Notes under the pieces: generated by a model
Seen by the model: only the letters and a program-made list of their open reading frames with translations
What the model was told of the DNA's origin: nothing
The model's database searches: none
Origin: Nitrospirota bacterium
GTDB lineage: Bacteria > Nitrospirota > Nitrospiria > JACQBW01
Assembly (NCBI GenBank): GCA_016178585.1
Contig: JACOTA010000032.1
Location: 1 to 53,180, forward strand
Length of the DNA stretch: 53,180 nucleotides
Reading direction: 5' to 3'
In this document: positions 11,080 through 45,040 of the stretch, in pieces
How positions within the stretch are numbered: position 1 is the stretch's first letter
Layout: each line of letters starts with the position of its first letter
Position numbers and translations under genes: made by a program

Positions 11080-13092
11080 ATGTCCCATTATGACATTGTA
11101 GCTTGGAAAGCTATCCAAGACCAGCTTGCAAAGCTAACCGGCTGTTCTCTTTTTACTTACGATACCGCAAAAGACCCCAGGCTTTTCTGTGAAGGCAGCC
11201 AGGAAAACCCTCTTTGTGAACTTATTCACAAAAATCCTGAATTGAAAAAATTATGTGAAGTCGAGCGTGAAATTCAGATCCAGCAGGCTGAAAAATCAGA
11301 ACAATCAAAATATTTCAAATGTTACGCCAATCTCAACCTGTTTGCAATCCCTCTCCAGACAGACTCTTCTGACCGGAAGGTCCTTGTGGGCGGACAGGTT
11401 TATTTTTCCTACCAGGAACTGGAAGACTTTAAGAAAAAAACCGCCGGTCTAAAATTTACTCCGCATTTCATAACCGAAAAAGCGGATGAAATAAAAATCA
11501 TCGACAAAGAGGCGTTTTTCAGCGCGAACCAGCTTATCGAATCTGTCGCTCTCCCTTTTTTTAAAAATCTCTCGGTCAAAAAAACATCGGACAACCGGTT
11601 GAACAAGTTAAATACCCTCTTCAATCTCTGTCAGGAACTGGACCAAAACCTGGGGGAAAGAGATTTTTACGGATTATTTCTCAATGCGCTGGGTATCCTG
11701 TTTAACGGAGAGACCGTCGCTGTTTTAAAACCCGATCCTGTCACAAAAGAATACAAAACTTTTGAAGCCTTCGGAAATAAAATTTATGAAATCGCAAAAT
11801 TCACGGGAAAAAAAGATAACGCCCTTTTTAAAAAGGTCCTTGAAAATCGCCGGCCCTACGCGACCCGGGATATTCTTGAAATTGTAAAGGGGGGATTTCC
11901 GGAAGAGACGGGTTCGCTCCATTTATTTCCGGTTGGAAAACCTGAAAAAACTCCGGCGCTTTTAGTTTTCCTCGATACAAACCTTTCAGAGGAAGACATA
12001 AAACTCATTGCCCAATTCACCCATCAAACTTCGGTCATTCTCGAAAATCAATTTTTATTCGAGGCCCTCAGAAATTATCGGAAGGACTCAAAAACCCTGA
12101 CCGAATTTTCCCATCTCCTCGTTTCCACTCTTGACTCGGAAGAACTTTTTAAAACGATTATTGACCAGGCGACGTCGATGCTTCATGCTGAACAAGGCTC
12201 CCTGATGCTCGTCGAAGAAGACACGGGCGACCTGAAAATAAAAGTGATAAAGGGCATCAATCAAAAAATTGTGGAAGGCCGCCGGATACAGGCGGGTGAA
12301 GGCGTCGCGGGAAAAGTGCTTCAGGAGGGCGTGCCGCTATTGGTTCAAGATATGGAAAACGACCCCAGAGTTTTGCTCCCCAAACGGTCGCGTTATAAAA
12401 CCACTTCTTTCATCTCCGTTCCGATCACTCTCGATCATCGGCCTATCGGGATTCTCAATGTGGCAGACAAATTCAACGAACCTTTTTTTACTGAAAAGGA
12501 CCTGCAGATTGCCTTAACCATCAGCGGGTATGCGTCGATGGCCATCGAGCGGTCAGAGTTTTACCGCCGGTCGGAGGAACTCCGTCAGATTTCGATTACA
12601 GATCCTTTAAGCGGATTGCTCAATCGGAGATATTTTCAAGAACGTCTGGCGGAAGAGATGGAAAGGTCAAAACGCCATAAACTTCCTTTGTCTTTGATTA
12701 TTATGGATATCGACAATTTTAAGCAATTTAACGACCTGCACGGTCATCTGGCCGGAGATGAAGCCATTCGAATCGTCGGAAGATGCCTTCGGAATAATAT
12801 CAGAACCATTGACGTTGCCGCACGGTATGGCGGCGAAGAGTTTACGGTGATTCTTCCCCAGACCGGCAAAGTCGACGCCACACAAATCGCCCAAAGGATC
12901 TGCCTGGAAATTGAAAAGACCGAGTTTATCACCGAGGACCTTCATAAAGGGCCAGGCATCACGGTCAGCCTTGGGTTGGCCACGTTCCCTGAAGATGCGG
13001 AATCTATCGAGGACTTATTTAAACACTCCGACCGGGCGCTTTATATGGCAAAGGCGGCGGGGAAGAATCGCGTCGTCGTCTACGCCCCCTGA
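11080..13092 (+). CDS. PocR-GAF-GAF-GGDEF diguanylate cyclase
   Basis: A 670-residue sensor that probably makes cyclic di-GMP. Residues about 5-160 form a PocR-like ligand-binding domain with conserved Cys residues (ENPLCELIH, KKLCEVE, KYFKCYANL), a family known to bind small hydrocarbon or metabolite ligands in other proteins. Two GAF domains follow (about 190-330 and 350-495; the second has the typical GEGVAGKVLQEG). The GGDEF domain (about 505-668) keeps the active GGEEF motif and an RTID inhibitory I-site exactly five residues upstream, so catalysis with product inhibition is expected. No transmembrane segment, so cytosolic. It stands alone. Confidence 0.9.
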   Translation: MSHYDIVAWKAIQDQLAKLTGCSLFTYDTAKDPRLFCEGSQENPLCELIHKNPELKKLCEVEREIQIQQAEKSEQSKYFKCYANLNLFAIPLQTDSSDRKVLVGGQVYFSYQELEDFKKKTAGLKFTPHFITEKADEIKIIDKEAFFSANQLIESVALPFFKNLSVKKTSDNRLNKLNTLFNLCQELDQNLGERDFYGLFLNALGILFNGETVAVLKPDPVTKEYKTFEAFGNKIYEIAKFTGKKDNALFKKVLENRRPYATRDILEIVKGGFPEETGSLHLFPVGKPEKTPALLVFLDTNLSEEDIKLIAQFTHQTSVILENQFLFEALRNYRKDSKTLTEFSHLLVSTLDSEELFKTIIDQATSMLHAEQGSLMLVEEDTGDLKIKVIKGINQKIVEGRRIQAGEGVAGKVLQEGVPLLVQDMENDPRVLLPKRSRYKTTSFISVPITLDHRPIGILNVADKFNEPFFTEKDLQIALTISGYASMAIERSEFYRRSEELRQISITDPLSGLLNRRYFQERLAEEMERSKRHKLPLSLIIMDIDNFKQFNDLHGHLAGDEAIRIVGRCLRNNIRTIDVAARYGGEEFTVILPQTGKVDATQIAQRICLEIEKTEFITEDLHKGPGITVSLGLATFPEDAESIEDLFKHSDRALYMAKAAGKNRVVVYAP

Positions 13093-16278: not shown

Positions 16279-17697
16279 CTATTGAAGCTGATTCCAGTTC
16301 CAGTTGTTCCATCCTGTGACTGTTCCTGTTCCGGTGGATTGAGTGGGGTCATAATAGACGCCGCCGGCCGTTCCATCTCCCCCCATTTCCAAAGAATTGG
16401 CGGTCAATGCCCCAAAAATTTTTCCGCCGCTCTCGACTTCTGCCTCCGCTGACGGCGCATAGACTGCTCCAAATAAGGTTGCGCCCGACTTTACCTCGAC
16501 TTCTGTCGCCGTCGGCAAACCTTTAATTTGAAGCGGCGTAGTCCCCTGGGTTGTCCCTAAAATGGTATTACTCCCGCTTAATTCAAGTTCGTTTGTGAAA
16601 TAGAGGGTCGCTCCAGGTGGAAAATAAATTTGAGTATTTTGCTGGATATCCCATTTTGGGATGATATAACAATTGCCGGCAGCCGTATCAACCGTAAACG
16701 TACCCGCAACCAGTTTACCCCCCCCAGTCGTCGCAAAAGCCGCACCACCATGAGTCGGTGTGGCACAGGTTCCGGGATAGTTGACGGGAGGAAAGTTGAT
16801 ATTCGCCGAAGCAGGGCCTTTCGTTCCTTGAATATTAGGAGTAGAACCCCCAGAAACTGAAATCACACTCGACGTTCCCCCAACCCCGTAGTTCAGGTTC
16901 CCGCAAATATTATTGGCAGCGCCGCTTATGCTGATAGAGCCCGCCCCGGTGGTATTCGACTGAACACCCCCCATTGCAGAATTCACGCATGCATTTGGAT
17001 TAGGAGCTGTCGTCGGGGGACCACCAACGGTCGTAGAGGTGTAGGTTCCTGTCGTGGCATTCCCATTCATCTCAAGTCCGCCTACCAGCGAAACCGCCCT
17101 GTTGTTTAAGGCATTGACAATGGGAAATATTTCATTCCGAACCATCTTATAGGTCCCGTTCGCATTGACTAAAGCCGTGACCTGCTCGATGGGACGGAGG
17201 CCAGCGACACAGGGCACATCCGAGGGAGGATTCGTATCCGGCTGATAGCACCGCATCGTTCCCGTGGAGTCTTTTTTATGCTGGATTTTTACCCATTGCC
17301 ATTGGGATTGATTTTGGACGCTGGCATAAATATTATTCGACCCGTTGGCATTGAACGTTACATCATAATAGGGAGAAGCTGCGGAATTAAACTGAACGGT
17401 GGTGGCGGCGGAGGAGGTGGTAAGATAATCCACCCAGTTGATGTTAAAACCATTAAATGGATCTACTGCCAATTGGGCTACGGAACTATCCACCATCCTC
17501 ACTTTTACCTCTTCAATCCCTGCTTCCGCCTGAAAGAGGGAATTCGAGGAGTTTTTCACATTTTTCGCAATATTGATATCGGTGGTTGAGGTCATGATCG
17601 CCGCAATGCCGATCAGGGTCATCATGATGAGCATCATCATGGCGATAAGCAAAGCAACCCCTTTTTCATTGTTGACTTGACTGATACAGTTTTTCAT
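16279..17697 (-). CDS. pilX: PilX-like minor pilin with a large C-terminal beta-rich domain
   Basis: A 472-residue type IV pilus assembly protein. The prepilin site is NNEKG|VALLIAMMMLIMM, with a hydrophobic helix and no Glu at +5, as in PilX/PilK-class minor pilins. The first ~70 residues carry the PilX signature (AEAGIEE). The C-terminal ~270 residues are Gly/Thr/Ser/Asn-rich, with repeated short beta strands (GATLYFTNELELSGS, VKSGATLFGAVYAP), resembling right-handed beta-helix or polymer-forming surface domains. PilX proteins are typically under 200 residues, so this one is greatly enlarged. The last residues are Trp/Asn-rich. It is the last gene of the operon, with AGGGA before the ATG. 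Confidence 0.82.
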   Translation of the reverse strand: MKNCISQVNNEKGVALLIAMMMLIMMTLIGIAAIMTSTTDINIAKNVKNSSNSLFQAEAGIEEVKVRMVDSSVAQLAVDPFNGFNINWVDYLTTSSAATTVQFNSAASPYYDVTFNANGSNNIYASVQNQSQWQWVKIQHKKDSTGTMRCYQPDTNPPSDVPCVAGLRPIEQVTALVNANGTYKMVRNEIFPIVNALNNRAVSLVGGLEMNGNATTGTYTSTTVGGPPTTAPNPNACVNSAMGGVQSNTTGAGSISISGAANNICGNLNYGVGGTSSVISVSGGSTPNIQGTKGPASANINFPPVNYPGTCATPTHGGAAFATTGGGKLVAGTFTVDTAAGNCYIIPKWDIQQNTQIYFPPGATLYFTNELELSGSNTILGTTQGTTPLQIKGLPTATEVEVKSGATLFGAVYAPSAEAEVESGGKIFGALTANSLEMGGDGTAGGVYYDPTQSTGTGTVTGWNNWNWNQLQ

Positions 17698-17722: not shown

Positions 17723-20700
17723 CTAAGGACAAATCAATGTCGCCGACGATTCATTTCCGGGTAAATCTCCAGTGCAGTTTTTCGTCACAAAGCCCGCCAT
17801 CGTCAAGGTCAGTGTCACGATCACATCGTTCGTTCCGGTAAAAACTTTCCCAGATGTATAGTTGGATAAGGGTAAGGTCGTCGTAAATGGGTAAGAGGAG
17901 CAGCCCACAGCGCACACTTCCTGAAATGTTCCGCTCACAGCCGCCCCGGAGGTAGTTGCGGTGCTCCCTAAAGCATCCGGGACAGACCCGGAAATCACCA
18001 CTGATTTCTTTCCGGGTCCCGAGCCATTATTGGACCAGGTGAGAGTCAAGCCGGGAACAAAACCATCATACTGGTCATAGGTATAAGCATTGAAAGTTCC
18101 ATTAGAATAAACCGGTTCCGACGAAATATTTCCCAGATTATCCGTTACCTGCAGATAATACCAGACTCTGTAGGGACTCCCATTTTCCAAAATCACCTTA
18201 CCGGCAGTTTTAGTTGCTGACCAATCAATGTTTGCTGATCCATCCGTTAGATTGGGAGTCAGGGTCATCGATAAAGGTGAAAGTGACGGTTGAGAAGTCG
18301 TCCAGCAGGCACTGTTTTGAGGAGGAGGGGTTGAGGTCATTACACTCCACGATTGTTTGCAATAATAGACCTTTGCGGAGGAAATCATACTTCCCGGGGT
18401 TCCTGCCGTGAAAACAGTGCCGGTTGAGAAATAAGTCGATACCGTATACGGAGGGAGGGTATAGGTCCCTGCAGAGGTAACTCCATAAACAAGAGGGGTG
18501 ATCGCTGTCTGCATTTGAAGCGATTTGATTTTAATCACCGGACCCTCGCTGACTATTATAGAAGAAGACCCCGTGCTCCAGGAGCAGGTGTTGTTAAAGG
18601 TTGAACCACCGTCGGTAGACGTTCCATAGGTCATGGAAATCCCGATACTTTCTCCGGTCATATCCACGGAGAGCGCACTTCCGCCGTTATTGACAAAGAG
18701 AAGTTCCATCGGAATCCCTTTTTGCAGAGCCGATAAATTCACAGTCGAAGAGAAAGTCACGTTGGTGCCGGAGGTGACTGCAGACCCACTCCAAACAGTC
18801 GTCGTCCCAATCTTAATGGTTTTTAACAAGGCCGTCGCCCCAAAATGATCCAGGCCTGCCCCATTTGTCGGATAAGACCAGGTAATGGCCGCGGTATCGA
18901 TCCCTGATCTGATCTGGATAGGTCCTGTGCTGGTGTTCTTGACAAAAAACTTCACGTCATCATGAGCCTGCGGCGCATCGGGCGCATCGGTGGTGGTCGC
19001 AATCAACGCCCGGTCAATTTCATAATTGTCATTACCCGGCGCAGAGGTAAAGGGATAACCTGCTGTCAATGTGCTCGCCGTATTGGATCCTACCGGCCGG
19101 GCCTGGCCTGAATCCACCCCGCTTTTCATCACCAAAGATCCATTTGGAAAGACATTTACCCCCCAATTTTTAGTCGTATCTTTAAGAACCGTCGTTGAAT
19201 TAAACCCTGTAGAGGTTCCCTGGTCGTAATAGACATCCTGCGTTAATCCTCCGGGAAACACGCTGACCGTCGTGGAAGCCACGCTTTCATGACGGGGGGA
19301 AGCGCAATCGAGAGCGGTGACAGCGTAATAGTACCCGACGCCGACCTGGGCCGTCGTATCGCTCCAGCTTCCTGTCCACCCCCCTGCCTGTGTAACCGGG
19401 ATTGGGGTACTATTTAATAAAGTGCCACCCAGTCCCGGACCGCAAGGGGAGGAGGAGCAACGATAAACATTAAATCCAACCACATCCCCGGGCATGATGG
19501 AAAAAGCCGTGCCGTCTCCGTTTATTGTCGGGGAATTCCAATTCAGGACCACTGGAAGAGCACAGGAAGAACCGGCTACATTGAGTGGCGGGCCAGGTCT
19601 TCCAGGATAGGTCAAATCACCGCAGGGCATCGCCGAAACGAGAGAAGTTTGTCCGGCGCTGAAATTCCCGCACTTGTCAAAAGCGTAGAAAGTATAGGTA
19701 TAAATCGTATTATTAATCAACCCGTTATCCATAAAGGTCATGGATTGTTGGGGGGTTAAAAGTGACGTCGGAGGGAAAGGAGAAGGATAAACCAACCTCC
19801 CGGTGGTAGGGGTTTGGGGATAGTCTGAAGGAACCCCTCTATTCCCGAAATTGGTAATCAATGGACTTAAACTATTGTCATTTGAAAGAATTTTCACTCC
19901 AAAAAGATCCGGAACATTCGGATTGGTCCATCCTAAGTAAACCTGATTCACCCCGGCGCTTCCGATGACCCCAGTCGGATCAGCCGGAGCAATATTATCG
20001 GTCGGATAGGTGTTTATTGACCCTGCCGAGCCATGTACAATGGAAGGAGCGGCCGCGCTAACATTCCCGCCGCAATCTACTGACTGCATTTTATACCAAT
20101 ACGGTTGCGGGGTTTGGTAAGTCAGCGGGCAATTCCAGGAACTGTCGGGAAAACTATCGGTGTAAGAAGCGGCTGTCGTGGCGATAGGTGTGCCGCCATT
20201 GAGCAGTTGCCAGGTTGACCCGGCATTGTTGCTCCGGTAAAGATTAAACCCGTTGATACCCGTCAGTGAAGAGGGATCGGTCCAGTTCAAAATCACAAAA
20301 GGTTTGGCAGGATTGGCCACACCGCCAACTAAAGCTTGCGCACTGGCCGTTGCGGTATTAATGGTCGGAGCGGCCGGTTGGAACGATGACGTATTGACAT
20401 TGGGCTGGGTATCTACCGAAACACCATCGCTGGCCGTATTCGCCTGAGAGAGATAGGGCAGACCGTTGTTCAGAACATTGCTCCCAAAACTGCTCATGTT
20501 CGCCGAGGTATCATACGCCTTGAGGGCCACATAATAAACCGTTCCATTATTTAATCCGTTAAGAGTATAGGTCGTGACTTTTCCCAAATTAATCGCGGTA
20601 TAATTCCCAGGGCTGGTTCCGTAATAAAGCATATATCCGGCCAGATCGGTTTCGGTGTTGGCATTCCAGGAGACATATAACGAACCACAAGGATTCCCGC

Positions 20701-21418
20701 TATCCACCACTTTTAATCCGGTGGGGGGGGCCGGAGGGGTCGCATCGGCATTGCCCAGACCAATCCCCATATTCCTGATCCGGATATCCGCCTCCACTTG
20801 AACCTGTTTGTAAATCGTCCCGCCGATCTTAACCCCGACTTTATCGGGAGCCGGCTTATTTCCCTTAGCCGTTAAACTAATCTGCACCCGGGTAATCTTG
20901 GCAAGATCGGTTGCCGATAACGGGAGTGAAGTTAATTGAAGATTGTTCTTATCATAATAGGTAAAGGTCAGCGCTGAAATATTTGAAGCAACAACCGCTT
21001 TGGGGGTAATGCTATTTCCCGAATTGTTGGAAGCATAGGTTGTGGTATATTGTTCTATCCCGCGCTGAAGGTCTGTTCCGACCAATTGATATTCTATTTT
21101 AAAATTTTTAGCCGGAACGGACGTATCAGCCTCTTCAAAAACAAAATCCGAAGCATTCGCAATATAGATACCAATACCATTACCATTACCGGGTGGCGAC
21201 TTTATTGGCTGGTAAGCGGCCAGTCTGATCTCCTTGATCATCTGCTCGATCCCGGCTCTCGCGTTTTGCTCAACATCGGAAAGTTGATTTTGCCCCAAAT
21301 AATTGTTATAAACCGAGTTGTATAGCCCGTATATCCCCGCCAAAAGTATCCCCAGAATGGCGACCGCCACCATAATTTCAATCAATGTAAACCCTTTGGA
21401 TCGCTTAATGATCTTCAT
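17723..21418 (-). CDS. pilW: Giant PilW-like minor pilin with fibronectin-III-type domains
   Basis: 1231 residues. The N-terminus is a classic class III prepilin signal (RSKG|FTLIEIMVAVAILGILLAG, Glu at +5), then a PilW-like region to about residue 215 (NARAGIEQMIKEIRLAAYQP). After a DATPPAPPTGL linker come several fibronectin-III-like domains: about 225-320 (LYVSWN...YYVALKAYD), 345-465 (VILNWTDP...YWYKMQSVD), 475-595 and 600-725 (VVLNWNSP...YYYAVTALD). The remaining ~500 residues are Ser/Thr/Gly-rich beta structure with scattered Cys pairs. Ordinary PilW is about 200-350 residues, so the extension would project from a pilus tip, suggesting adhesion or carbohydrate binding (inference). GAGGAG precedes the ATG. 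Confidence 0.85.
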   Translation of the reverse strand: MKIIKRSKGFTLIEIMVAVAILGILLAGIYGLYNSVYNNYLGQNQLSDVEQNARAGIEQMIKEIRLAAYQPIKSPPGNGNGIGIYIANASDFVFEEADTSVPAKNFKIEYQLVGTDLQRGIEQYTTTYASNNSGNSITPKAVVASNISALTFTYYDKNNLQLTSLPLSATDLAKITRVQISLTAKGNKPAPDKVGVKIGGTIYKQVQVEADIRIRNMGIGLGNADATPPAPPTGLKVVDSGNPCGSLYVSWNANTETDLAGYMLYYGTSPGNYTAINLGKVTTYTLNGLNNGTVYYVALKAYDTSANMSSFGSNVLNNGLPYLSQANTASDGVSVDTQPNVNTSSFQPAAPTINTATASAQALVGGVANPAKPFVILNWTDPSSLTGINGFNLYRSNNAGSTWQLLNGGTPIATTAASYTDSFPDSSWNCPLTYQTPQPYWYKMQSVDCGGNVSAAAPSIVHGSAGSINTYPTDNIAPADPTGVIGSAGVNQVYLGWTNPNVPDLFGVKILSNDNSLSPLITNFGNRGVPSDYPQTPTTGRLVYPSPFPPTSLLTPQQSMTFMDNGLINNTIYTYTFYAFDKCGNFSAGQTSLVSAMPCGDLTYPGRPGPPLNVAGSSCALPVVLNWNSPTINGDGTAFSIMPGDVVGFNVYRCSSSPCGPGLGGTLLNSTPIPVTQAGGWTGSWSDTTAQVGVGYYYAVTALDCASPRHESVASTTVSVFPGGLTQDVYYDQGTSTGFNSTTVLKDTTKNWGVNVFPNGSLVMKSGVDSGQARPVGSNTASTLTAGYPFTSAPGNDNYEIDRALIATTTDAPDAPQAHDDVKFFVKNTSTGPIQIRSGIDTAAITWSYPTNGAGLDHFGATALLKTIKIGTTTVWSGSAVTSGTNVTFSSTVNLSALQKGIPMELLFVNNGGSALSVDMTGESIGISMTYGTSTDGGSTFNNTCSWSTGSSSIIVSEGPVIKIKSLQMQTAITPLVYGVTSAGTYTLPPYTVSTYFSTGTVFTAGTPGSMISSAKVYYCKQSWSVMTSTPPPQNSACWTTSQPSLSPLSMTLTPNLTDGSANIDWSATKTAGKVILENGSPYRVWYYLQVTDNLGNISSEPVYSNGTFNAYTYDQYDGFVPGLTLTWSNNGSGPGKKSVVISGSVPDALGSTATTSGAAVSGTFQEVCAVGCSSYPFTTTLPLSNYTSGKVFTGTNDVIVTLTLTMAGFVTKNCTGDLPGNESSATLICP

Positions 21419-21442: not shown

Positions 21443-21943
21443 TCATTTGCTCAACATCGTATTTAAGGTGACGCTATGAACATTTTGCGCCGTATCTCTC
21501 CAGAAAACCTGAACCGTTAAATTGGCCACTCCCACATTGTTGATTCCAATTTGCGGCAGGGTAATTCTGGACACTCTCTGAAACGGAACGAATCTCTGAT
21601 CCGCCGCCCGGGGACAAACACCGATGGGAACTGTATTGGTAATGGTTCCATAAGCTTCGGTTACGGTGGCATCGGTAGCCGACCCGGTCCCCACCGGGAT
21701 ACAGTTATCCTGATCGGCCAACATATTGGTGGCCGATGGCATAAACAAAACGGTTAAATTCCGGTATTTTTCAATCCGCTCTTCCGCAAGCCACTTGGCA
21801 GTACTCATCTTTCGGGCAAAACTGTTCGCGTTAATGGCCGTGATCATCATATTGGCAATTCCAAGGAGGCCAACCGATAAAATAGCCCCTGCAACCAGGA
21901 CTTCCAACAACGTAAATCCTTTTTTATTTTTTAATATTTTCAT
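21443..21943 (-). CDS. pilV: PilV/GspI-type minor pilin
   Basis: 166 residues. The prepilin site KNKKG|FTLLEVLVAGAILSVGLLG has Glu at +5 and matches PilV. The frame is open upstream to 22054, but those residues overlap fimT and precede the leader peptide. I choose the ATG at 21943 (MKILKNKKG), matching the sister pilins; an ATG at 21952 is also possible. It lies 2 bp from the fimT stop, so it is translationally coupled. Two Cys pairs occur in the C-terminal part (DNCIP, GVCPRA). Confidence 0.88.
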   Translation of the reverse strand: MKILKNKKGFTLLEVLVAGAILSVGLLGIANMMITAINANSFARKMSTAKWLAEERIEKYRNLTVLFMPSATNMLADQDNCIPVGTGSATDATVTEAYGTITNTVPIGVCPRAADQRFVPFQRVSRITLPQIGINNVGVANLTVQVFWRDTAQNVHSVTLNTMLSK

Positions 21944-21945
21944 AT

Positions 21946-22455
21946 TCACCATCCCGGCGTAGTAATAGTGGGAAAAGCTGTTGGAGCTGAAATAGTAATG
22001 AGCGGCCTTTCCCCGCCGCCATTCATACAATCGATACCCGTAACGATGGAACATATAAAAACAGATAAATTATTAGTCATGGACCCGTCAGGGTTAAATG
22101 TCTCTGTAAACACCCCATTGTTATTGGCGGTTACACCCAGATAGGCTATGTTCACCCCTGCAGGAAGTGTGATGGTTGACGCTATCTGGGTTCCGTTATC
22201 CAAAATAGTAAAGCTGTCTGGATTAGGATAAACGGCCAGGTTAAATTGCAACGTAATCACTCGTCCCTTAACGGCGGCTTGAGCTCTTGCCGTTCTCATG
22301 TATGAAAAAATATCCCGTGCCGATGAATTTAGTCTCAAATGAGGCAAATAGCTCAGATAAGTCGGCACTGCTAGAGCGGCCAATACACCGACAATTGCAA
22401 CCACCACCATCAGCTCAGTCAGGGTATACCCTTTTTGATTTCTTAAAATTTTCAT
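21946..22455 (-). CDS. fimT: FimT/GspH-type minor pseudopilin
   Basis: 169 residues. The prepilin site RNQKG|YTLTELMVVVAIVGVLAALA has Glu at +5. The following segment (LNSSARDIFSYMRTARAQAAVKGRVITLQF) is the GspH/FimT signature. It is the first gene of the pilin operon, downstream of a sigma-54 type promoter. Together with pilV, pilW and pilX it would form a tip-priming complex; no major pilin, PilY1 or assembly ATPase is in the window. Confidence 0.9.
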   Translation of the reverse strand: MKILRNQKGYTLTELMVVVAIVGVLAALAVPTYLSYLPHLRLNSSARDIFSYMRTARAQAAVKGRVITLQFNLAVYPNPDSFTILDNGTQIASTITLPAGVNIAYLGVTANNNGVFTETFNPDGSMTNNLSVFICSIVTGIDCMNGGGERPLITISAPTAFPTITTPGW

Positions 22456-22541: not shown

Positions 22542-22684
22542 GGGCATTTATTATTTATTACTCATATAAATCAATACGTTAGAATAATTTAAGTAAAGAG
22601 TGGGTGAGATTTTTACGGAAGGAAGGGTAAGGGTGCGATACCTGGAGCCTCTTGCGCGACAAAATAACAATCAATAAAATAATG

Positions 22685-22713
22685 TTGACACATTGTTTAT
22701 ACTTTATTATTCT
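22685..22713 (+). promoter_or_regulatory. Probable sigma-70 promoter of mazEF
   Basis: TTGACA at 22685-22690 and TATTCT at 22708-22713 are separated by 17 bp, about 50 bp before the mazE start. The AT-rich stretch with palindrome ATGATCAT at 22718-22725 just downstream is a plausible autoregulation site. Confidence 0.55.
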
Positions 22714-22765
22714 ATATTATGATCATGACTTAAGTAAAACAACCTGTTGTAAGGAGATTTTCAAT

Positions 22766-23005
22766 ATGAGAGCCAAGGCCCAAAAATGGGGAAACAGTCT
22801 GGCTGTACGAATTCCAAAAGTTATTGCAGACGAGGCCAGCATCCATGAAAATGACGAACTGAACATTGATGTGGTTGATCGTCAAATTAGAATTATTCCT
22901 TGCCAACGTCCGTATGACCTGAACAAACTCCTGGCTGGAATTTCTGAAGAGAATTTGCATAAAGAAATTGATCTTGGGACCCCCGCGGGTCAGGAAATCT
23001 TATGA
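22766..23005 (+). CDS. mazE: MazE-type antitoxin (AbrB fold)
   Basis: 79 residues, acidic C-terminus. The N-terminal SpoVT/AbrB DNA-binding motif (KAQKWGNSLAVRIPKVIADEA) fits MazE/PemI/ChpR. The start is the ATG at 22766, ten bases after AAGGAG; an upstream in-frame TTG at 22652 has no ribosome binding site. It overlaps mazF by 4 bp (ATGA). It should bind and neutralise MazF and repress its own promoter. Confidence 0.9.
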   Translation: MRAKAQKWGNSLAVRIPKVIADEASIHENDELNIDVVDRQIRIIPCQRPYDLNKLLAGISEENLHKEIDLGTPAGQEIL

Positions 23006-23349
23006 AAAAGAAGCCGGCTTATGTTCCTGAACGGGGAGACATCGTATGGGTCAACTTTACACCTCAGGCAGGCCATGAACAGGCGGGGCAACGTCCTGCG
23101 CTGGTACTCTCTCCTGTGCAATACAATGCCCGGACAGGCTTAATGTTATGCTGTCCGATAACCAGTCAAATAAAGGATTACCCTTTTGAAGTGGCAGTTG
23201 GAGATCAACAAAATGTTCATGGAGTGATTCTGGCAGATCAAGTGAAAAGAGTTGATTGGATCACGCGAAAAGCTCAAAAAAAAGGGGCAGCAGCCGGCCA
23301 GGTTGTTTCGGATACCCTGGCAAAAATTCATGCTTTGCTTCAATTTTAG
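23002..23349 (+). CDS. mazF: MazF/PemK-type endoribonuclease toxin
   Basis: 115 residues. The N-terminal PERGDIVWVNFTPQAGHEQAGQRPALVLSP contains the conserved RGDI(V)W and GHEQ..RPAL(V) motifs, and PITSQIKDYPFEV follows. MazF/ChpB toxins cleave mRNA at short specific sequences. Full length with intact core motifs, so probably active. It forms a two-gene operon with mazE, between the pilin operon and the sigma-54 activator. Confidence 0.92.
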   Translation: MKKKPAYVPERGDIVWVNFTPQAGHEQAGQRPALVLSPVQYNARTGLMLCCPITSQIKDYPFEVAVGDQQNVHGVILADQVKRVDWITRKAQKKGAAAGQVVSDTLAKIHALLQF

Positions 23350-23397: not shown

Positions 23398-24768
23398 TTA
23401 CTCCAGGCCGTACTCTTTAACTTTAAGGTGCAGAGTTTTAAAGCTGACTTTGAGAATTTCAGCCGCTTTGGTTTTGTTCCCGTCGGTCTGTTCAAGAACT
23501 TTTTTGATCATCTGCGACTCCACCAATTTTCCTGCTTTTGAGCTTGCTTCCATAAGGCCGCCGTCCGGAGGAAATTCCTGGGCCAGTTCAACAAGCCCAT
23601 TGACTTCTAACGAACTTAAGCCGAGATGATGCGGAAGAATCTGGTGGTCAGAGAGAATAACCGCCCGCTCGATACAATTTTGTAATTCACGGATATTTCC
23701 AAGCCAGGGATGCTCAGACATTTTATTTTTAGCTTCAGTTGAAAGAACCTTGGGCCCCTTTTTCATCTCTTTACAGTAATAATCGATAAAATACTCTGCC
23801 AGGGGGAGAATATCTTCTTTCCGTTCGCGGAGCGGAGGAATGACAATGGGGAAAACATTAAGTCTGAAATAGAGGTCTTCTCGAAATGTTTTCCTGGCAA
23901 TCTCCCCTTTTAAATCTTTGTTCGTTGCCGCGATCACCCGGACATCGATGATGACCCGATTGACCCCTCCGACCCTGGTTAAAGCATGTTCTTCGAGGAC
24001 CCGGAGAAGCTTGCCTTGAAGCCCCAGGTCCATATCGCCAATTTCATCGAGAAAAAGAGTCCCCCTGTCAGCCAGTTCAAATTTTCCTAACTTTTTTTCC
24101 GTCGCTCCCGTAAAAGAACCCCGTTCGTGCCCAAAAAGCTCTGATTCAAGGAGATCCCGTGGAATCGCCGCGCAATTAATCGCGATAAAAGGGTCTTCTT
24201 TTCTAGGGCTGAGGAGGTGAAGCGCCCGGGCAATCAGCTCTTTGCCGGTTCCGCTTTCTCCCCCGAGAAGAACCGTCGTCTTATTTTGGGAGACTTTCTT
24301 AACAATTTCAAGCATTTCCATTAGTTTTTGGCTTTTACCGATAATTTTAGGAAATTGTAAATTTTCCGAGTATTCTTCTTTTAAGATCATGTTTTCAGTT
24401 AATAATTTCTGGTTTTCAAGCGCCTTTTTTATCAACAACAAGAGATGATCCGGTTCAAACGGCTTGGTGATAAAATCAAACGCCCCCTCTTTTACCGCTT
24501 TTACAGCGGTTTCAACACTCCCAAAGGCCGTCATTAAAATCACCGGCACCATCGGATGGGTTTCCTTAACCTTGGAAAGGATCTCCAGGCCGGAATAAAA
24601 AGGGAGCTTGAGATCGCTGACAACCAGGTCAAAACGTCTTTCCTTAAACCGGGTCATCCCCTCTTTTCCATTGGAGGCCCAGACCACCTCGTAACCCTCT
24701 GACCGAACCGCTGTCATGATCATCCGGGCCATGCTTTCTTTGTCTTCAACCAATAAAATGGAAAACAA
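23398..24768 (-). CDS. NtrC/PilR-type sigma-54 response regulator
   Basis: 456 residues: a receiver domain (about 1-120) with the acidic pocket ED near residue 8 and phospho-acceptor Asp in VVSDLKLP (about 52), an AAA+ domain (about 140-375) with Walker A GESGTGKE and Walker B LDEIGDM, and a Fis-type HTH (about 410-456, GNKTKAAEILKVSFKTLHLKVKEYGL). The sigma-54 contact loop reads GSFTGA rather than the commonest GAFTGA, a variant known in other active members. The TTG start at 24768 has AGGAG five bases upstream. No histidine kinase lies next to it. Proximity to the sigma-54 promoter of the pilins makes a PilR-like role likely. Confidence 0.92.
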   Translation of the reverse strand: MFSILLVEDKESMARMIMTAVRSEGYEVVWASNGKEGMTRFKERRFDLVVSDLKLPFYSGLEILSKVKETHPMVPVILMTAFGSVETAVKAVKEGAFDFITKPFEPDHLLLLIKKALENQKLLTENMILKEEYSENLQFPKIIGKSQKLMEMLEIVKKVSQNKTTVLLGGESGTGKELIARALHLLSPRKEDPFIAINCAAIPRDLLESELFGHERGSFTGATEKKLGKFELADRGTLFLDEIGDMDLGLQGKLLRVLEEHALTRVGGVNRVIIDVRVIAATNKDLKGEIARKTFREDLYFRLNVFPIVIPPLRERKEDILPLAEYFIDYYCKEMKKGPKVLSTEAKNKMSEHPWLGNIRELQNCIERAVILSDHQILPHHLGLSSLEVNGLVELAQEFPPDGGLMEASSKAGKLVESQMIKKVLEQTDGNKTKAAEILKVSFKTLHLKVKEYGLE

Positions 24769-43439: not shown

Positions 43440-43763
43440 ATGAGAACGAGTCGATCATCGGTGATACTGCCCATCCCGGTCAGGCGTGCGCTACGCAAGC
43501 TGGGCCACGACATACGTGACGCCCGGCGGCGGCGGCGTATCCCTGTGGCTATCGCGGCTCAGCGCGCCTCCATCAGCAGGACAACGCTGGTCAAGATTGA
43601 AAAGGGCGATCCCGGCGTTGCGATCGGAATCTATGCTACGGTCCTCTTTGTGATGGGCATGGTCGAGCGCCTCGCCGACCTCGCCGATCCGAAAAACGAC
43701 ACCGTGGGCCTTCAGCTTGTAGAGGAGCAACTGCCGCAACGAATTCGCGGAGCGCGGAAGTAG
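43440..43763 (+). CDS. hipB: HipB-like XRE-family antitoxin/repressor
   Basis: 107 residues, Arg-rich N-terminus, Cro/C1-type HTH at about 28-70 (RRRRIPVAIAAQRASISRTTLVKIEKGDPGVAIG). In HipBA systems this protein binds the promoter and sequesters the HipA kinase. Codons are strongly GC-rich, unlike neighbouring genes, suggesting recent transfer. No clear ribosome binding site before the ATG; the candidate operator overlaps the leader. It is separated from hipA by 17 bp. Confidence 0.85.
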   Translation: MRTSRSSVILPIPVRRALRKLGHDIRDARRRRRIPVAIAAQRASISRTTLVKIEKGDPGVAIGIYATVLFVMGMVERLADLADPKNDTVGLQLVEEQLPQRIRGARK

Positions 43764-43780: not shown

Positions 43781-45040
43781 GTGATGGACAAAGAGGCTCT
43801 TGTGTACGTGGATCTGGATGGCGTTCCCCGCCTCGTGGGGCGACTGTGGTCCCGCGTGCGCAAGCGGAAGGAAAGCGCCACCTTCGAATACGACCAGGCC
43901 TGGCTTGAACATCCTGAGCGGTTCTCTCTGGAACCGGCCCTCAAGCTTGGTCCCGGCCCATTTCACACGCCGACCGATACACCGATGTTCGGCGCTATCG
44001 GCGACTCGGCGCCGGACCGCTGGGGACGGGCGCTGATGCGCCGCATGGAACGCAGGCGCGCGGAACGGGAGGGAGGAGCCCCGCGCACGCTCCAGGAAAT
44101 CGACTACCTGCTGCTGGTGGACGATGAGGCGCGTCAAGGCGCGCTCCGCTTTGCCGAACGTGAAGGCGGACCGTTCCTGAGGGAGGAGGGCGTCAAACGC
44201 ATACCGCCGCTGGTCGAACTGCCGAAACTGCTTTCGGCGGCGGAACACGTCGTGGAGGAGAAGGATACCGACGAAGATCTGCGCCTGCTGTTTGCGCCGG
44301 GGTCGTCGCTTGGCGGCGCACGGCCAAAGGCATCGGTCAGGGAGAAGGACGGACATCTCGCGATTGCGAAGTTTCCGCGCCGGGATGATGAAATCAACAC
44401 AGTGATGTGGGAAGCGGTGGCTCTCACACTGGCAAAAAAAGCCGGCATCGCGGTGCCTGAGAGACGCGTCGAAAACGTGGGGAACAAACCTGTGCTTCTG
44501 CTCCGGCGTTTTGACCGGGATGGCGCACGGCGCATCCCCTTTCTCTCGGCCATGAGCATGCTGGGGTCGAAAGACAACGAAACACGAAGCTATCTGGAAA
44601 TCGTGGACGCGCTTCGCCAGCACGGAGCTGCGCCGAAAGCGGACATGGAGGCGCTTTGGCGGCGGATGGTTTTCAATATTCTGATCTCCAATACCGACGA
44701 CCACCTGCGCAATCACGGGTTTCTCTATGAAGGTCCGGATGGCTGGCGCCTTTCACCGGCCTACGACCTCAACCCTCAGCCGACCGACATCAAGCCGCGA
44801 ATCCTCACCACAGCGGTCAACGAGGATGACAACACGGCCTCCCTCGCTTTGGCGATGGAAGTTGCCGGGTATTTCGAACTCGACGCCACCAAAGCCCGCG
44901 AAATAGCGGCACAGGTAGGGAATGCCGTCTCGAAATGGCGCGACGAAGCCGCCCGGTATGGTCTCACGAAAGGGGAGATCAACCGCATGGCGTCAGCATT
45001 TGAACATCAGGATCTGAAGGCGGCGCTCGATGGGCAGTGA
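43781..45040 (+). CDS. hipA: HipA-like serine/threonine kinase toxin
   Basis: 419 residues. The N-subdomain (about 1-110, VYVDLDGVPRLVGRLW...IGDSAPDRWGR) is followed by the HipA_C kinase. The phosphate loop SLGGARPKA (about 185), the ATP-site lysine region HLAIAKFPRRDDE, the catalytic motif NTDDHLRNHGFL (about 307) and the metal motif SPAYDLNP (about 327) are all intact. HipA kinases inactivate aminoacyl-tRNA synthetases such as GltX; the target here is unknown. AGGAG precedes the ATG. The pair is flanked by hairpin copies C and D in opposite orientation. Confidence 0.9.
   Translation: MMDKEALVYVDLDGVPRLVGRLWSRVRKRKESATFEYDQAWLEHPERFSLEPALKLGPGPFHTPTDTPMFGAIGDSAPDRWGRALMRRMERRRAEREGGAPRTLQEIDYLLLVDDEARQGALRFAEREGGPFLREEGVKRIPPLVELPKLLSAAEHVVEEKDTDEDLRLLFAPGSSLGGARPKASVREKDGHLAIAKFPRRDDEINTVMWEAVALTLAKKAGIAVPERRVENVGNKPVLLLRRFDRDGARRIPFLSAMSMLGSKDNETRSYLEIVDALRQHGAAPKADMEALWRRMVFNILISNTDDHLRNHGFLYEGPDGWRLSPAYDLNPQPTDIKPRILTTAVNEDDNTASLALAMEVAGYFELDATKAREIAAQVGNAVSKWRDEAARYGLTKGEINRMASAFEHQDLKAALDGQ

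Follow-up and report, generated by a model that had tools for sequence, protein, structure and literature searches.

We have identified in the phylum Nitrospirota a giant PilW-type minor pilin of 1231 amino acids, which probably (we put the probability at roughly 0.6) bears a built-in tip adhesin that replaces PilY1 on a retractile type IVa pilus. The window examined here is an entire contig of 53,180 nucleotides from a 2.45-Mb draft genome in 82 contigs. What the sequence itself provides is the prepilin motif, the operon, the architecture of the protein and its conservation, together with the absence of PilY1 and the presence of PilT.

The giant pilW gene in a conserved minor-pilin operon

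The open reading frame (17723-21418, minus strand) begins with ATG and has no internal stops; its start context is gcgaggagaaaATG, in which gcgaggaga precedes the ATG. It is the third gene of a minor-pilin operon with the order FimT-PilV-PilW-PilX (22455-16279, minus strand), starting ~25 bp past pilV and followed by pilX after another ~25 bp. The first gene encodes a FimT/GspH-type minor prepilin (21946..22455; PF12019 above the cut-off and N_methyl at 1e-8), and the second a PilV-type minor prepilin (21443..21949; N_methyl at 4e-7, with TIGR02523 PilV at E=9e-10 but below its cut-off), whose likely start at 21949 gives a 4-nt overlap with fimT. The fourth encodes a long PilX-type minor pilin of 472 aa (16279..17697), in which PilX_N and a C-terminal DUF7305 are both matched above the cut-off; the DUF7305 C-terminus looks beta-helix-like by eye. 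This PilX has no Glu5 after its leader (G-VALLI). Tip complexes typically contain a PilX without Glu5 (PMC7541494, PMC10191384), and PilX proteins of M. xanthus, P. aeruginosa, and N. gonorrhoeae also lack this residue (PMC7541494).

The operon is flanked by a PilR-like regulator on one side and by phoH-ybeY-ftsY on the other, an order common to relatives including the loci L052 and L093. The PilR-like gene, which encodes a sigma-54 response regulator, lies upstream of the operon (23398..24768, minus strand), and a similar neighbor is present in L052, L093, L126, and L130. A MazE/MazF (PemK) toxin-antitoxin pair (22652-23349, plus strand) sits between this gene and the operon and was not found at the equivalent spot in the relatives inspected (L052, L126, and L130). 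Elsewhere in the window, we noticed a PocR-GAF-GGDEF diguanylate cyclase (11080-13092, plus strand), which adjoins ftsY and is not far from the pilus operon, and a HipA-like kinase (43781-45040, plus strand; HipA_C at 1e-51) with a 107-aa ORF just upstream (43440-43763). No Rfam RNA was detected in the window.

The leader and pilin module of the giant protein occupy residues 1-218 (20765..21418, minus strand). Pfam N_methyl matches residues 4-29 with E=7e-10, and the class III signal reads SKGFTLIE, with cleavage after KG leaving FTLIE and hence Glu5. The protein is encoded alongside FimT/PilV/PilX minor pilins in an arrangement kept in relatives. While no PilW-named model of Pfam or NCBIfam matched the module, its residues 1-214 are similar to other PilW modules (profile A2); together with the position in the operon, this is the basis on which we call the protein “PilW-type”, a designation that stops short of firm membership in PilW. 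A sequence-only reading of this DNA had proposed that a PilW-type prepilin leader is fused to FN3 domains, and the N_methyl motif, the operon, the PilW-module profile, and the FN3-like domains described below bear this out.

The retraction ATPase PilT was found in all of the 14 giant-containing genomes tested, including that of the window (G000), and the pili are therefore probably retractile. In principle, the giant protein might instead be a subunit of another type IV filament, namely of a type II secretion system (T2SS) pseudopilus, given weak GspH- and GspK-like matches; this we regard as very unlikely, because PilX_N is matched above the cut-off, a PilR-like gene is the neighbor, PilT is present, and contig C41 of the genome carries a separate T2SS-like cluster (L092) that includes pseudopilins of its own. 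Identity as a T2SS pseudopilin was rejected on the ground of this separate cluster, which was recognized by reading of ORFs and not by a family search.

Four FN3-like domains and a conserved distal module

Following the pilin module, four FN3-like domains are supported, with good model confidence for the first alone. Domain 1 (residues 224-312; 20483..20749, minus strand) is matched by Pfam fn3 at 5e-5 and, in a profile search, by fn3 chains of the PDB at E-values down to 6e-7, and its AlphaFold2 pLDDT is ~80. In the window protein, the Pfam fn3 match covers residues 230-303 (E=2e-4) with 21.8-23.8 bits against a curated cut-off of 25; the same model matches 6 of the 9 family members at E<=0.01, the best at 8e-11. 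HMMs built from the family’s own domains cross-detect one another and point to three further FN3-like domains, reaching approximately residue 716. Domain 2 (~residues 366-477; 19988..20323, minus strand) is supported by these cross-matches and by Foldseek similarity to multi-FN3 fragments, with low pLDDT, and domain 3 (~residues 477-586; 19661..19990, minus strand) by the FN3_1 HMM and Foldseek; FN3_1 detects the domain-3 equivalent in homologues with iE of 9e-7 to 1e-3. Domain 4 (~residues 617-716; 19271..19570, minus strand) is delineated by the alignment of homologues and the own-family HMMs, and its counterpart in homologues of the families f5 and f8 is divergent and longer. As a whole, the AlphaFold2 model aligns with four-FN3 fibronectin fragments at 1e-11 in Foldseek, a strong match of fold, with low global TM-scores because the relative placement of the domains is unreliable in the model. 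The mean pLDDT is 46 for residues 216-1231 and 56 for residues 814-1119, so the domain borders beyond the first FN3-like domain are approximate.

The distal module comprises two conserved regions in the alignment of homologues (A7). One is a beta-sandwich-like domain at residues 814-935 (18614..18979, minus strand) with the motif FFVKNTS...ITWS...LLKTIKI...VDMTG, which is predicted with fair confidence (pLDDT mostly 58-91); the other, at residues 936-1119 (18062..18613, minus strand), ends in RVWYYLQVTDNLGN...YTYDQ and is modeled with low confidence. The remaining tail (residues 1120-1231; 17726..18061, minus strand) is variable and absent from the homologue in G350. The sequence-only reading described several FN3-like domains followed by ~500 further beta-rich residues; own-family HMMs, AlphaFold, and Foldseek support four such domains, and the further stretch amounts to about 400-500 residues, predicted with low confidence as strand and coil. 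In the distal module, Foldseek and a sequence search of the PDB gave nothing below E=0.001, and weak matches to, for example, CBM35, the phage lambda gpJ tail fibre, and CfaB fimbriae were set aside; no ligand-binding domain was recognized in giant PilW. Across the 396 genomes of the phylum sample, the distal module occurs in 13, on pilins with one exception in G221. This exception is a 2442-aa non-pilin that looks secreted, with a signal-like N-terminus (L148, 1278-8606).

Collinear giants in other Nitrospirota

Searching for the same architecture yielded collinear FN3-type homologues with the same operon order and position in 14 further Nitrospirota genomes, which are 1046-1802 aa long where complete and are spread over several other families. 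The FN3-type giants are those of G000, G015, G025, G028, G031, G204, G213, G221, G229, G242, G279, G291, G296, G350, and G354, of which the G221 protein has 1802 aa; in G015, a run of N and contig ends with overlapping sequence interrupt the gene. That the window gene is a product of misassembly or a frameshift, which would have joined a pilin gene to a separate FN3 gene, had been raised as the case that would undo the sequence-only reading. Although the source is a draft genome of 82 contigs, we reject this possibility with near certainty, because collinear homologues recur across independent genomes and families.

Three more genomes (G003, G211, and G227) encode giants of another type, with a longer pilin module and an invasin-type Big_1 stalk (L054 5923-9327 in G003, L129 3406-6759 in G227, and L127 from ~2140 in G211). 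The L054 protein has four copies of Big_1 (E=4e-31), and the G003 and G227 giants end in a C-terminal domain that, by eye, looks related. Among the other PilW-module matches listed from 98 genomes of the class, the frames are ~170-580 aa. In a tree built from the pilin modules, the giants are not resolved as a single clade; the idea of a single origin was set aside, and giants may have arisen once or several times. No plasmid-borne relative of note was found. We also observed in several Nitrospirota a second minor-pilin cluster with a short PilW (~235-256 aa), a long PilX, and no PilY1 of its own, which adjoins the PilY1 cluster or the giant cluster (L052 11792-14806, L053 12911-15762, and L093 5059-8003).

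No PilY1 in the 18 genomes found to have giant PilW

In model diderm type IVa pili, PilY1 is described as belonging to the tip/priming complex. It was detected with PF05567 in 207 of the 396 phylum genomes, and this model had no match in the genome of the window, in the class-sample giants, or in any giant of the phylum sample. A profile made from the C-terminal part of Nitrospirota PilY1 (A6) likewise found none in all 18 giant genomes, while the controls were positive (G029 with E=0, G041 2e-222, G222 7e-203, G309 8e-115, G368 2e-95, G433 2e-58, and G308 4e-23; the incomplete G022 yielded weak fragments) and included three genomes of the family f32. These absence calls concern draft genomes, mostly >90% complete, and giants related to that of the window. 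The proposal that a long adhesin is displayed without PilY1 accordingly holds insofar as no PilY1 was found in the genome of the window or in any of the 18 genomes with giant PilW. Under independence, 18 of 18 genomes without PilY1 would occur by chance with a probability of ~1e-5 when counted by genome and ~5e-5 by genus, figures that are optimistic because shared ancestry is uncorrected.

More telling than these figures are contrasts within families. In f5, the genus g7 has PilY1 and PilW frames of <500 aa, whereas g14 has giants without PilY1. In f8, g10 and g13 contrast with g20 (giants, no PilY1), G038 of g13 being without a PilY1 match; in f32, g108 and g146 with PilY1 contrast with g88, g93, and g96 with giants, the PilW length of the PilY1 genomes lying outside this comparison. 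In f5, furthermore, the exchange can be seen at a single slot with the same neighbors on both sides: L087 has PilW (349 aa), PilX (187 aa), a 123-aa protein, and PilY1 (1330 aa), while L053 has PilW (1224 aa) and PilX (528 aa). PilX is also of different size in the two settings, namely ~190-200 aa beside PilY1 in relatives (187 aa in L087) and 399-612 aa beside giant PilW, and may have co-evolved with the loss of PilY1.

A PilY1 domain hidden in the extension was considered and rejected: there is no match to the C-terminal beta-propeller PF05567, and profile comparison of the extension with PilY1 shows no similarity (hhalign probability 0.1%). The giant is therefore not a simple fusion with PilY1.

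These patterns bear on another explanation, in which giant PilW serves as an additional adhesive subunit of the tip or the shaft and the loss of PilY1 is a coincidence of lineage, not a substitution. Genomes with neither PilY1 nor a giant are indeed common (e.g., in the family f12), from which it follows that loss of PilY1 does not require a giant; G004, in the window’s own family, also has only a short PilW, but it is not decisive because its operon runs off the contig. Also, an ordinary second minor-pilin cluster is retained in G025 and G031 and might be sufficient to prime the pilus, and the sample is not phylogenetically independent. We nonetheless consider this explanation rather unlikely, though the most serious of the alternatives, in view of the 18 of 18 giants without PilY1, the contrasts within f5, f8, and f32, and the replacement at the same chromosomal slot.

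Discussion

From these observations we infer that giant PilW enters the pilus tip and acts there as stalk and adhesin, binding a ligand and substituting functionally for PilY1; we regard both its display at the tip and its role as an adhesin as plausible. PilW would join the FimT-PilV-PilW-PilX priming/tip complex through its N-terminal helix, and the FN3 (or Big_1) stalk would carry the distal module outward with the first pilus subunits. The distal beta-rich module would then contact the target surface as the adhesive part while retraction pulls the cell, occupying in these lineages the role of PilY1, the separate tip adhesin. Some points count against this arrangement. No ligand-binding domain is recognized, and the distal module has no confident match in the PDB. 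In the tip complex as ordered by a published AlphaFold model, PilX/PilY1 and not PilW is at the top; PilX engages PilY1 there through strand complementation, with the N-terminus of PilY1 as the ultimate tip (PMC13190605), and a stalk on PilW would therefore project from just beneath the tip. Experimental precedent for modular pilins as adhesins is provided by PilB and PilC of Streptococcus sanguinis (PMC8179133, PMC9934059).

FN3 and Big_1 domains, when repeated, typically serve as spacers, which would also suit a structural spacer or plug in the periplasm or secretin that, for example, stops retraction and has no adhesive role. Such a cork has in fact been proposed for the complex of PilY1 and minor pilins (PMC7541494). 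We find this unlikely for giant PilW; both the length (1046 to 1802 aa) and the type of the stalk vary while the FN3-type giants retain the distal module, so that display fits better than a plug of fixed size, albeit not decisively.

The sequence-only reading had also supposed that FN3 domains have few examples on type IV pilins. We take the entry IPR003961 to be fibronectin type III. Among the 264 architectures in which more than 1,200 modular pilins have been listed, this entry is one of the 15 commonest (Raynaud et al. 2021, PMC8179133), so the supposition does not hold in general and a pilin carrying FN3 is no novelty. Giant PilW shares with modular pilins the class III signal, the pilin module, and a C-terminal graft not specific to pilus biology (here recognized by fn3 and Foldseek), and tip exposure and adhesion have been proposed for them as well (PMC8179133). 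The modular pilins characterized in S. sanguinis, however, have one vWA or lectin module, in contrast to the four FN3-like domains and distal module here, and giant PilW further differs in being a 1231-aa PilW in a FimT-PilV-PilW-PilX operon and in its tie to the absence of PilY1. Among large minor pilins presenting extra domains, S. sanguinis PilB (a shown adhesin) and PilC and CofB of ETEC are comparable, but they have other domains and belong to monoderm or T4b systems, and CofB trimerizes and serves as an adapter for the secreted CofJ (PMC8179133). Like giant PilW, PilC/PilY1 (PF05567) is large, is encoded with FimT/FimU-PilV-PilW-PilX, and has variable effector modules, and pilins have been noted to use the same modules as PilY1 (PMC8179133); giant PilW differs in lacking the PF05567 beta-propeller and in having its effector part covalently within the pilin. 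The Big_1-like stalks of the giants in G003, G211, and G227 resemble invasin-type adhesins but are mounted on a pilin module instead of an outer-membrane barrel. In the open-licence PMC papers searched, we found no description of giant FN3 PilW or of its mutual exclusion with PilY1, and a giant PilW replacing PilY1 appears to be undescribed there.

It is quite possible, though we would stop a little short of calling it likely, that in several lineages of Nitrospirota the otherwise common PilY1 has given way to a giant modular PilW, with a covalent pilin-adhesin tip replacing a pilin with a separate adhesin. If so, PilY1 would be dispensable for priming and retraction in a diderm type IVa pilus. 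Genomes with the retraction ATPase, without PilY1, and with a giant pilin in its chromosomal place offer a direct test of the need for PilY1, by which its roles in priming, capping, and adhesion become testable, and they add candidates for large modular adhesins on a pilin carrier.
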